Shown piece by piece: positions 2,978 to 31,154 of a stretch of DNA of 37,378 bases (position 1 is the stretch's first letter; every line of letters begins with the position of its first letter). Under the pieces are notes generated by a model. It was given only the letters and a program-made list of their open reading frames with translations, did no database searches and had not been told where the DNA came from. The translations under genes were made by a program, and so were the position numbers. Origin of the DNA: a virus; the IMG/VR virus record IMGVR_UViG_3300033153_001710, positions 1-37,378 of that record; one strand, 5' to 3'.

Positions 2978-2993
2978 AATTTCTCCTTTGTTA

Positions 2994-3320
2994 TTATTCT
3001 ATTCTATAACTTCCTTCCTCTGAAATACACACAACCACTCCACACTCAAACGTAACATCGACATAGTAGACAATAAAGAAATGTCCTATATCACCCTCAA
3101 CCCTAGTTATGATACGTTGTGTGCCGTTTGCGGCACACGTTCCATTTACCTCGACATCACCACCTTTTATAGATAGGTTGCCCACCTGCATAGCTTCGGT
3201 AGTGTCAACTACGAAAAAAATATGGAACACCATCATAAAAGATAAGATGAAAACAACAAACATAGTGATTGCCATCACAAAACTATACTTAATCAGTTTA
3301 AACAGATCATGTTTTTCCAC
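2994..3320 (-). CDS. Small membrane-anchored protein
   Basis: 108 residues starting with GTG, supported by the SD AAGGGAGGTAAGC. Residues about 10-38 form one hydrophobic helix (YSFVMAITMFVVFILSFMMV) preceded by Lys residues, so it is a signal anchor with the C-terminal part probably outside the cytoplasm. The outer part has four Cys (GTCAANGT, FECGVVVC), compatible with disulphides in a periplasm. It overlaps the preceding basic mini-gene by 14 bp. No family recognised. Confidence 0.6.
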   Translation of the reverse strand: MEKHDLFKLIKYSFVMAITMFVVFILSFMMVFHIFFVVDTTEAMQVGNLSIKGGDVEVNGTCAANGTQRIITRVEGDIGHFFIVYYVDVTFECGVVVCISEEGSYRIE

Positions 3321-3788: not shown

Positions 3789-5921
3789 TTAAGAAATATT
3801 ATCCTGTTCGTTAAGTCTCCATGCACCTTTCATAAATTCTTTCCATTCATCATTTGCGGATAGTTCTGCGCTATCGATAGGAAGCCCAGAAGCCATATTG
3901 CCTTGAAAGAATTCGTCTATTGCTGCTGTTCCTGTTTCTGCACCTACAAAAACATCTGTGGCTAAATCCTCCATAGCAACGTAGGCTCCATCGTTAGTCG
4001 CTGTACTCGCTACTGCCAAACCGTCCACATAGATAACACAATTAGCACCATCAAGAGCAGTTGCCCCGCCGGAACCATCGTAGGTTATAGACCAGTGATG
4101 TACTCCAACGGCTAAAGCGGCATCTGTAACCCTATATGTTACTACGTTGGCGGATTCATCATATAGAGATATTTGTAATTTTTCGTCACTTGTGAGTTCG
4201 ATTTTCCATTCTCTAAGTTCTGCCGCGTTAGTTTCATCCCATTTCGAAATAACAACTTGCGAAACCGCTGTTGCTACCACTTCAAACCATCCAGACCATG
4301 TTACCGCCTCGCCTGAACTATCATCAAACGAAAGGTTAGCCGCATCTGCTATGCTTAAATAATCGTCTGTAGCGTCAAAATCAAGTGCGTTTACCATGCC
4401 TTTGTTTATCTTGTCGCCACTCGCCCAACTTCCACTTGCCTCGTAAGTAGCATCGTTATTCGTACCTGACAGGTCGTATTCAGTCGTTCCGCTTCCTGGT
4501 GTACCGTAGAAAGCTAAGAGTAAGCGTGGGTCTGTCATGTCTCCGAATATGTCGGATGCTAGATTGCCTGATCTTTGGTCGTTCCATGTTGCTCCATAAA
4601 CTTCTTCGGTTACGGCATCTACTACAAAAGCTTTCGCGCTAATTGTGCTATAAAAAGACAAATCCAAATCTTTCTGCGCGGCATTTAATATAATATCGCC
4701 TTGACCGACATTAGAGCCGTCGTATCCATCAAGCGTTATTACTTCTGACAAAGAATCGTCCACTCGTATTTTTAAACGAATAGAACTTGCTTCGTCTCCG
4801 GCTGTAGTATCTTCTTCAACAAAAGCTATTTCCGAGTATTGTAATTGGGAATGACCCGAATCAAGTCCAAATTGTCTAAACTTTCCGATTGTTGTGTTGT
4901 CACCTACGCCTCCCGTGTCAACCTTATCAAAATCAAAATTAACTCCATCACCGTCTGTATTTGTATTTTGAAGCGTCAAGGATGGTCTTTGGTTTAATCC
5001 ACTAGAAACCACCATAGTGTCAGCCCCGGCATCTATAACAAAAAATCCTGGCGTATTTGCGGTCTCCCAACGATGGTTTACATCTGCACCAGCTTCATTA
5101 TAAACTCTCTCTGTGATGCCTGTATAGTCGTCCGATATAGCACTTCCCGAGAAGGTTTGAGAAAGTATGTCGCCGTTTTCTGTTACTGTATAGGTATTGT
5201 CTACGGCGTTAGCAAGAAGTACACCATTTTCGAGCGCCAAACTCGTACTTGTTGCCGCTCCGAGTACAGGTGTTACAAATGTAGGGCTAGTCGCAAACAC
5301 CAACGAACCTGTTCCCGTTTCATCGGTAACAGCGGCTATCAAGTTCGCACTCGATGGTGTAGCTAGCCATGTAGCTATATTAACGGCCAGTCCTGCAACA
5401 CCTGTACTAATTGGTAAACCGGTGCAACTTGTAAGCGTTCCCGCGGAGGGTGTGCCTATGTTGGGTGTGGTAAATGCTGGGTTTGTCGAATACACCACAA
5501 CCCCTGTTCCTGTCTCGTCAGAAATAACCCCCGCCAATTCTGCGGAACTTGTTGAGGCGAATACAGATAGCTTGTCGTTTACCGTAGGAACATTAACCCC
5601 ACCCTCTGTAAGTGTTGCGCCTTCGATTGTGCCTGAAGAAGTCACATTTACTGCGGTAAGCGTATCTGTAGCCTTATCGTATTCAAAGCCAGCTTCAGCA
5701 CCTATCACACTCCCGCCGTCATTAAACTGCACTTCCTTGTCTGACCCCGCCGCCGGAACTGTTGACCCCGCCGCAAATACTACCGTAAGGGCCGAGTTGA
5801 TAGAATCGTACACGCTATTAAGTATCTTTTGTACTGATAGCAACGCCGCATCTGCCGTCTGAAACCCTGCAAATACCATTGCCACCAACAAAAGCCCTAC
5901 GATAAATTTCTTTTTCATCAT
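3789..5921 (-). CDS. Exported LamG-domain tail-fibre/adhesin protein
   Basis: 710 residues. A Sec signal peptide (MKKKFIVGL... cleaved after ADA) is followed by a conserved N-terminal motif ALLSVQKILNSVYDS. Two copies of a roughly 38-residue phage-fibre repeat occur at residues 121-158 and 186-223 (core DETGTG...TNPAFTTP and DETGTG...TSPTFVTP). Residues about 465-690 resemble a LamG/concanavalin-A-like lectin domain (LLLAFYG, VNALDFDATDDYLSI, HHWSITYDGSG, VIYVDGL). This suggests a carbohydrate-binding appendage. Two ATGs stand in tandem; the second fits the SD GGAGGA better. The signal peptide on a fibre-like protein is the notable oddity. Confidence 0.75.
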   Translation of the reverse strand: MMKKKFIVGLLLVAMVFAGFQTADAALLSVQKILNSVYDSINSALTVVFAAGSTVPAAGSDKEVQFNDGGSVIGAEAGFEYDKATDTLTAVNVTSSGTIEGATLTEGGVNVPTVNDKLSVFASTSSAELAGVISDETGTGVVVYSTNPAFTTPNIGTPSAGTLTSCTGLPISTGVAGLAVNIATWLATPSSANLIAAVTDETGTGSLVFATSPTFVTPVLGAATSTSLALENGVLLANAVDNTYTVTENGDILSQTFSGSAISDDYTGITERVYNEAGADVNHRWETANTPGFFVIDAGADTMVVSSGLNQRPSLTLQNTNTDGDGVNFDFDKVDTGGVGDNTTIGKFRQFGLDSGHSQLQYSEIAFVEEDTTAGDEASSIRLKIRVDDSLSEVITLDGYDGSNVGQGDIILNAAQKDLDLSFYSTISAKAFVVDAVTEEVYGATWNDQRSGNLASDIFGDMTDPRLLLAFYGTPGSGTTEYDLSGTNNDATYEASGSWASGDKINKGMVNALDFDATDDYLSIADAANLSFDDSSGEAVTWSGWFEVVATAVSQVVISKWDETNAAELREWKIELTSDEKLQISLYDESANVVTYRVTDAALAVGVHHWSITYDGSGGATALDGANCVIYVDGLAVASTATNDGAYVAMEDLATDVFVGAETGTAAIDEFFQGNMASGLPIDSAELSANDEWKEFMKGAWRLNEQDNIS

Positions 5922-28486: not shown

Positions 28487-28608
28487 TCTGCTAGTTGCAC
28501 CAACCCAGCGATTAAAAATAAAACACTACCCGCCAGGCCGATACAGAGTAAGATCCCACACAAGATGGGATTTATTTCTTTTGGTTTGCTTCCTAAGCCC
28601 TTGTTCAT
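28447..28608 (-). CDS. Small one-helix membrane protein (53 aa)
   Basis: An ORF with SD AAGGTGAC before the ATG at 28608, overlapping the HNH gene stop by 4 bp (ATGA). The product is a short hydrophilic N-terminus (MNKGLGSKPKEINP), one long hydrophobic segment (CGILLCIGLAGSVLFLIAGL) and a short tail. The compact coupling with the nuclease gene and SD argue that it is expressed. It overlaps the following membrane gene by 40 bp, a pattern sometimes seen for paired small membrane proteins in lysis cassettes. The role is unknown. Confidence 0.6.
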   Translation of the reverse strand: MNKGLGSKPKEINPILCGILLCIGLAGSVLFLIAGLVQLAEWGIKLWNLFAQH

Positions 28609-28982
28609 ATGTCACCTTTTGTAAACCTTTCTAGCATTTCCGCATAATCATCCGCGTCATACTTACAGATCTGGTTTGATCTCTGCTTGATTTCATAATA
28701 CCTGTCTAACCCTATCCATTTCTCGATCAAGTCGCGCTGTTCATCCCATGTGCTTGACCCATGCCAAAAGTTCCTGTGACAATAGAATCCACACATTACA
28801 ACGACGTTATCCGGCTCAAACATAGCATAAGTTCCCTTAGACCTCGGGACAAGGTGATGCGCGTCAAGCTCTGCTGGCGGCCTGACCTTCCCGCATCTTT
28901 GACAAACCCCTTTGGCTCTCTTGGCTTTAGATAATGCCTGCCAGACTAAGAACTTCCATCTTTTTAGTGTTCGTTTTGCCAT
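28605..28982 (-). CDS. HNH endonuclease
   Basis: 125 residues. A zinc-binding pair C27-x-x-C30 and C64-x3-C68-H69 surround the catalytic core: DAHHLVPRS (His42/His43), PDNVV (Asn59), and CH (68-69). This is a classic ββα-metal HNH domain with structural zinc. In phages such enzymes act in packaging, recombination or as homing nucleases. It is here in the middle region, not next to the terminase, so a packaging-associated role is less certain. Confidence 0.85.
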   Translation of the reverse strand: MAKRTLKRWKFLVWQALSKAKRAKGVCQRCGKVRPPAELDAHHLVPRSKGTYAMFEPDNVVVMCGFYCHRNFWHGSSTWDEQRDLIEKWIGLDRYYEIKQRSNQICKYDADDYAEMLERFTKGDI

Positions 28983-30970: not shown

Positions 30971-31154
30971 TTGCGAGGGAGCAGGGATTTGCCGAGATAA
31001 AGGTCTTATCTATCATCAGGCGTCACTCTGAATGCCTTTACAACGCCCACTCGTATAGTCACCCTGCATTAACCGTCCTTGTCTTGGTGTTAGCTCGATT
31101 GACGGTACTATCAGCTAACTCCTTAGTGTCTACCTATTCCACCATCCCTCGCAA
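30971..31154 (-). ncRNA. 184-nt tRNA-like structured RNA (candidate)
   Basis: Read on the minus strand. A perfect 10-bp closing helix TTGCGAGGGA/TCCCTCGCAA (31145-31154 with 30971-30980) starts and ends the element. Next come a D-arm-like segment GGTGGAATAGGTAGACAC, nearly identical to that of tRNA-Leu, and a 6-bp T-like stem GCAGGG/CCCTGC (31062-31067 with 30981-30986) next to the closing helix. In place of the anticodon arm are two interlocking stems, GTTAGCT/AGCTAAC (31113-31119 with 31089-31095) and ACCGTC/GACGGT (31101-31106 with 31072-31077), a pseudoknot. A 6-bp hairpin AGATAA/TTATCT (30995-31011) lies inside an enlarged T-loop. It fits exactly between two genes and contains no tRNA anticodon arm of normal size. 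Confidence 0.6.

Follow-up and report, generated by a model that had tools for sequence, protein, structure and literature searches.

The window, a stretch of 37,378 nucleotides (positions 1 to 37,378 of the IMG/VR virus record IMGVR_UViG_3300033153_001710), carries a tRNA-like RNA at positions 31154-30971 of the minus strand, the orientation of the surrounding phage genes. The strand assignment follows from the homologues, which fix it, and from the flanking phage genes, which share it; reading the plus strand (fold z -1.95) was rejected, the homologues sitting on the other strand. Downstream of the RNA lie an HNH gene and then the large terminase gene. The HNH endonuclease gene occupies 28605-28982 (minus strand), upstream of the large terminase gene, and in the phages Sha1 and LP-101 an HNH gene is likewise placed between the RNA and the terminase end. 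Relatives of the 260-aa neighbor protein of the window were not found in viral contigs. From its 5' to its 3' end, the RNA is composed of the following parts:

31145-31154, minus strand: closing (acceptor-like) helix, 5' strand TTGCGAGGGA; perfect inverted repeat with 30971-30980, covarying in relatives
31143-31144, minus strand: U8-G9 of the tRNA-like core; UG in 126 of 127 members, none of the search patterns requiring it
31126-31142, minus strand: D-arm of the tRNA-Leu type, GTGGAATAGGTAGACAC; recovered also by a pattern not including the D-arm
31068-31125, minus strand: hypervariable middle of 58 nt replacing the anticodon and variable arms, with U48 at its end; defined by family comparison
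31113-31119, minus strand: pseudoknot stem S1, 5' strand GTTAGCT; stem search, extended inverted repeat
31101-31106, minus strand: pseudoknot stem S2, 5' strand ACCGTC, within the S1 loop; stem search
31089-31095, minus strand: pseudoknot stem S1, 3' strand AGCTAAC; stem search
31072-31077, minus strand: pseudoknot stem S2, 3' strand GACGGT; stem search
31062-31067, minus strand: T-stem of 6 bp, 5' strand GCAGGG; inverted repeat, covariation, members from the T-region pattern
31050-31061, minus strand: conserved box TGACTATACGAG, consisting of U54 and the start of the T-loop insert, its CGAG pairing with CTCG; class A alignment
30997-31049, minus strand: variable interior of the T-loop insert; sequence
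30987-30996, minus strand: CTCG closing the insert, then G55-CAAAT as the 3' part of the T-loop; class A alignment, core-residue count
30981-30986, minus strand: T-stem, 3' strand CCCTGC; inverted repeat, covariation
30971-30980, minus strand: closing helix, 3' strand TCCCTCGCAA, CCA not encoded; inverted repeat, covariation

A preceding sequence-only reading of this DNA had pointed out the 10-bp terminal inverted repeat (TTGCGAGGGA/TCCCTCGCAA), the tRNA-Leu-like D-arm, the 6-bp T-stem (GCAGGG/CCCTGC), and two interlocking stems of 7 bp (GTTAGCT/AGCTAAC) and 6 bp (ACCGTC/GACGGT), and all of these are present at the positions given above, each of the two interlocking stems with p ~0.01 against shuffles. 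It had also held the element to be neither a normal tRNA nor a tmRNA, in agreement with ARAGORN, which finds nothing at the RNA; Rfam searches at gathering as well as permissive thresholds returned no family match there. The strand, the family size, the insert-free class B, the copies in cultivated phages, and the cassette exchange described below were not part of that reading. The D-arm of the window consists of a 3-bp stem and an 11-nt loop with A14, A15, G18, and G19, while the T-loop reads TGACTATACGAG...CTCGGCAAAT between the T-stem strands. A possible second pseudoknot, likewise absent from that reading, lies in the T-loop insert (GGGCGT/ACGCCT with TAAAGG/CCTTTA); separate family support for a fold of this insert was not found, nested folds giving a mean z of -1.1 and the window -0.1. 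The nested fold of the window RNA taken alone is mildly unusual (z -2.25 against shuffles).

For the definition of a family, a first pattern combining the D-loop box with GGCAAATCC, spaced as in the window, was scanned over viral contigs, yielding 20 contigs with an identical architecture in all 20. Further patterns paired the D-box with GGTGACT or were limited to the T-region, and bacterial and archaeal assemblies were scanned in addition. The resulting aligned set, termed class A, comprises 53 distinct members including the window. Assemblies with class A copies carry the labels Pseudolabrys, Saccharibacteria, Kocuria, Pirellulales, and Nitrososphaeraceae; these contigs, taken by bin label, may represent phages or prophages. 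The class A members follow a common plan of a closing helix with 7 bp or more, often extending further, U8-G9, a D-arm of the tRNA-Leu type, a hypervariable middle, and a 6-bp T-stem. In place of the 7-nt T-loop and 12-bp acceptor/T arm of a tRNA, the 6-bp T-stem carries a loop of 40-107 nt, interrupted by TGACTATACGAG...CTCG.

The covariation analysis of homologues, which had been proposed along with the initial observation, was passed in both classes. In the class A alignment, the 22 helix pairs are paired in 97.2% and show 259 doubly changed cells compared with 61 in shuffles (0 of 500), with the pairing counts favored by the extraction, which accepted only sequences whose T-stem was paired and whose acceptor was paired in part. 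Sliding the partner columns by one lowers the pairing to 39-45%. The seven acceptor-like pairs beside U8 are built from 48 different 5' heptamers among the 53 sequences and are paired in 96-100%. Among the 44 distinct members obtained by the T-region pattern alone, all six T-stem pairs form in 42, two or three of the six being fixed by the pattern itself; the D-arm lies within three changes in 37 and at least six of the seven acceptor pairs are present in 41 of these 44. A sequence profile built from the 52 relatives with the window excluded matched the window only at 31149-30976 (minus strand, E=2.1e-20) and had no match in 20 shuffled windows. That the window RNA is more than chance we regard as settled by homology, which is the decisive evidence. 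No match to the class A consensus boxes was obtained among isolated phages or plasmids. Two kinds of match from other scans were rejected: many plasmid matches rest on the D-arm only, and the match in MT121960 is an ordinary tRNA-Leu. Relatives of the window by TerL (L001-L010, 40-49% identity) had no copy of the RNA in the stretches examined.

A second and commoner form, class B, was first seen via weak model matches in a Clostridia assembly and corresponds to the class A body with an uninterrupted 7-nt T-loop, TGCAAAT. Comparison of the two places the class A insert inside the TG-CAAAT loop, around positions 54-56; the T-stem has 6 bp in both. The class B search yielded at least 120 viral contigs, with 74 distinct sequences among those fetched. 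Class B covaries strongly as well, in an alignment that left out members with poor acceptor pairing (10 of the 74 do not reach six contiguous acceptor pairs). Matches occur in cultivated phages of Lactobacillus, Leuconostoc, Weissella, Listeria, Enterococcus, Brochothrix, and Bacillus, and model R1 or R2 confirms copies including those of SPP1, phi3T, LP65, phiJL-1, B054, LP-101, LN34, PWc, Sha1, VEsP-1, and EFDG1; in total, 124 phage records gave matches to the class B query, in some cases through the D-arm alone. None of the cultivated-phage records holds an RNA annotation at the class B sites, a few having an overlapping short hypothetical ORF, and a text search of the 2018 re-annotation of SPP1 for tRNA gave no mention. 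In sampled cellular genomes copies are rare: model R1 gave a single clear case among 380 genomes from one phylum, and model R2 gave four among 398 from a second, seeds included in both counts. Most weak model matches in cellular genomes (29-47 bits, 85-90 nt) have the size of tRNA-Leu and were rejected, and E. coli genomes had no match to a Lactobacillus copy.

Single genomes can carry two or three copies lying apart. The virus record IMGVR_UViG_3300021057_000003 holds three copies within 50 kb (L119, L120), one of them on the opposite strand, while two further records have two copies (G040) and one of each class (G041), respectively. A phage-like contig of a Clostridia MAG (L121, G015:C99) combines two class B copies with an RtcB-like RNA ligase. 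In SPP1 (L255, X89721.1), a possible shorter second tRNA-like element, ACGGAC...CGGGTTCAATTCCCG...GTCCGT, directly follows the class B RNA just downstream of 2605. A different tRNA-like RNA, noticed at ~130-242 of L117 (virus record G035), shares the D-arm type but has two plain hairpins in the middle and the T-loop TATCGAAT.

Evaluation of 127 members revealed positions 8, 9, 14, 15, 18, 19, 48, 54, 56, and 58 to be nearly invariant. Most of these residues lay in one or another search pattern; U8, G9, and U48 lay in none, and U8 is kept in 126 and G9 as well as U48 in all 127 members. The residues for the core contacts U8-A14, A15-U48, G19-C56, and U54-A58 are present, read here at the level of sequence only. 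Since A15-U48 and U8-A14 belong to the classic core pairs of tRNA, we infer with good reason a tRNA-like elbow, the core folding as in tRNA. The anticodon arm (5-bp stem, 7-nt loop) is absent, with a pseudoknot or an unrelated fold in all members inspected.

The D-arm and core of tRNA-Leu, together with a 7-bp acceptor and A73 in 42 of 62 members in class B and the position abutting the tmRNA in EFDG1, would be in line with a charged, tmRNA-like RNA, to which LeuRS, not reading the anticodon, adds leucine for ribosome rescue or a non-ribosomal transfer. Leucine charging requires A73, as established for E. coli tRNA-Leu. However, A73 is only enriched, being found in 29 of 53 class A members, and is replaced by U in SPP1 and by G in Leuconostoc phages; no encoded CCA was seen, the T-stem has 6 bp, many class A helices are longer than 7 bp, and a tag frame has no room. 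As position 73 is not fixed and CCA is not encoded, charging with leucine is doubtful, and we consider a charged RNA improbable.

The middle region is hypervariable. In the window, S1 and S2 interlock. On family level, the stem anchored by a 3' strand that stops 2-4 nt short of the T-stem exceeds the shuffles in strength (Fisher p ~1e-10 for class A and 6e-10 for class B), and a stem crossing it, given the first one, is enriched (8e-5 and 7e-4, respectively), although the simple stem search did not give a clear pseudoknot for every member. In many members the middle is predicted to fold as an H-type pseudoknot, a fold that is strong in the window and statistically supported overall. Most middles cannot be aligned to one another. 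Identical cassettes are nevertheless found on different acceptors (L165 with L161 and with L164, 100%), the acceptor GTGCTTG, which includes Lactobacillus phages, is combined with seven unrelated cassettes, and one cassette is common to the 147-kb EFDG1 (Herelleviridae) and the 39-kb VEsP-1. As judged by these comparisons, the middle is swapped as a unit between unrelated phages while the body is kept. The extreme sequence change of the middle may also point to near neutrality. A minimal copy in phiFL2B (L258, GQ478085.1, ~2979-3030) has lost the middle and retains acceptor, D-arm, and T-arm only.

Regarding the genomic setting, no neighbor gene family recurs in more than 4 of 53 loci (mechanical ORFs, BLAST E 1e-5), which speaks against a phage protein partner; RtcB was rejected as a partner, being present in 1 of 40 class A records. 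Several siphophages place the RNA between a late regulator (ArpU/RinA) and the terminase genes, a site at which a cis-acting or a processing role would also fit. As a processing signal, the tRNA-like shape would be a substrate of RNase P and a 3' tRNA nuclease, whose cuts would set late or early mRNAs apart, with the middle being irrelevant. In 41 of 51 loci the nearest downstream ORF has the orientation of the RNA, A73-U74 is frequent in class B, and the middle is exchanged or lost, all as such a signal would allow. Yet it needs neither the near-invariant tRNA-Leu D-loop nor G55 nor the pseudoknot, and the long closing helices of class A should hinder cutting at tRNA ends, leaving this explanation with little probability. 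We likewise regard as unlikely a cis-acting leader or regulator of late genes, for which the location next to ArpU/RinA and terminase genes would argue: the SPP1 copy lies between genes 9 and 11 inside the head operon, copies of the large phages EFDG1, LP65, and P100 lie within tRNA clusters, a genome can hold two or three separate copies, and no terminator-like site was found beside the RNA in the window.

The copy in P100 has degenerate loops. The tRNA cluster of this phage (L261, NC_007610.1, 31571-39373) has a gene for an "RNA-binding protein", a tRNA splicing ligase, and an RNA ligase nearby and contains several odd T-arm-like sequences between the annotated tRNAs. In EFDG1 (L253, NC_029009.1), the RNA follows the phage tmRNA without a gap; this tmRNA, detected by ARAGORN at 4476-4823 with the tag AKNEELLAVA and absent from the annotation table of the record, ends one base before the class B RNA. 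A Y RNA partnering a Ro60 (TROVE/Rsr) protein would share the tRNA mimicry, and an "RNA-binding protein" gene lies close to the cluster in both P100 and EFDG1. In the P100-like Listeria phage CKA15, abundant unannotated non-coding transcripts from highly transcribed loci near tRNA genes were tentatively assigned as Y RNAs (PMC12282133), their link to the RNA described here being putative. Considering phage-encoded partners, a TROVE gene is found in 0 of 40 class A records, including that of the window, and Rfam, Y RNA models included, has no family match at the RNA, which makes a Y RNA very improbable. Least probable of all is the intron-bearing or eroded tRNA: excision of the insert would leave the class B T-loop TGCAAAT, but the anticodon arm is absent in both classes, so that the intron-containing tRNA suggested earlier is not supported, and the strong covariation excludes simple erosion.

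As the best reading, to which we give about an even chance, we propose an RNA that acts in trans, mimics the body of a tRNA without decoding, and would occupy a host factor recognizing tRNAs; the label "tRNA mimic", already offered by the sequence-only reading, fits the RNA, and the regulatory RNA named there as another option may hold as well. It would be made as a stable transcript folding like the body of tRNA-Leu, with an acceptor-like helix, D-arm, and T-arm as well as their contacts. The loop of the hairpin at the anticodon position would pair with the variable region, forming a pseudoknot that makes decoding impossible, and in class A, including the window, an additional arm would grow from the T-loop. 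Acting in trans, the RNA may occupy a host factor that reads tRNAs by elbow and D-arm, serving as competitor, decoy, or scaffold held by this factor. A trans-acting mimic is favored by the constant body, the absence of the decoding part, the lack of a fixed partner gene, the exchangeable middle, and positions resembling those of tRNA genes. Covariation in both classes, also among the members of the T-region pattern, the conservation of the unselected U8, G9, and U48, the anchored and crossing stems of the middle, and copies lying in tRNA clusters of large phages or immediately after a phage tmRNA argue for it, whereas a crossing stem that is not found in every member, the phiFL2B copy without a middle, and a middle that may be nearly neutral argue against it. 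Sequence comparison shows a family with its helices and near-invariant core residues as well as the swapping of middle cassettes.

More tentatively, and with less than an even chance, the trans-acting mimic may represent an undescribed and very widespread class of phage RNA, in which a tRNA body with an exchangeable pseudoknot cassette, and in class A an elbow arm, serves as decoy or handle for host machinery recognizing the tRNA body. If so, cassette swapping among unrelated phages that infect one host would be a sign of an arms race, and a role as decoy or handle of host factors that bind tRNA would add an unexplored layer to the contest between phage and host over tRNA. As the two classes show, the T-loop can take up an inserted arm and still keep the elbow residues. 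A conserved structured RNA of many unrelated phages has apparently escaped annotation, being rejected by tRNA and tmRNA finders and lacking an Rfam model. Its occurrence in SPP1, phi3T, LP65, phiJL-1, and phages of Enterococcus, Leuconostoc, and Listeria makes its function testable in laboratory systems. An earlier description was not found in the open-access full text searched.

Compared with known systems, the RNA shares with bacterial tRNA-Leu the D-arm sequence, U8, A14-A15, U48, G18-G19, U54, C56, A58, and the acceptor-like helix, and differs by a pseudoknot instead of the anticodon arm, a 6-bp T-stem, G55 or an interrupted T-loop, the lack of an encoded CCA, and a discriminator base that is not fixed. 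The tRNA-like ends and the pseudoknot at the place of the anticodon arm recall tmRNA, from which it is distinguished by the absence of a tag reading frame, a complete D-stem of the tRNA-Leu type, a far shorter length, and its ARAGORN-negative status. The T4 RNAs rnaC and rnaD (species 1 and 2) are likewise small phage RNAs in a tRNA cluster, stability being a feature of the T4 RNAs, and rnaC has a T-arm-like 3' end, whereas both lack the tRNA-Leu D-arm; they were rejected as homologues, model R1 having no match at these genes and only 13.4 bits elsewhere in the stretch. Bacterial Y RNAs of the YrlA type also mimic tRNA, with phage occurrence reported, but are bound by Ro60-type proteins, for which genes are lacking in the class A genomes, and the arrangement of their parts differs. 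For the tRNA-like part of a Y RNA, competition for a tRNA nuclease has been suggested (PMC7790460). The tRNA-Other of B. cereus, a pseudo-tRNA within longer RNAs of a chromosomal island, is a tRNA-like element not working in translation (PMC3399842) and resembles the phage RNA in being tRNA-like yet non-translational, a likeness by description and not by sequence. Mimics of tRNA are a known kind of RNA, while the present architecture matches no Rfam family and has apparently never been annotated; a categorically new function is possible.
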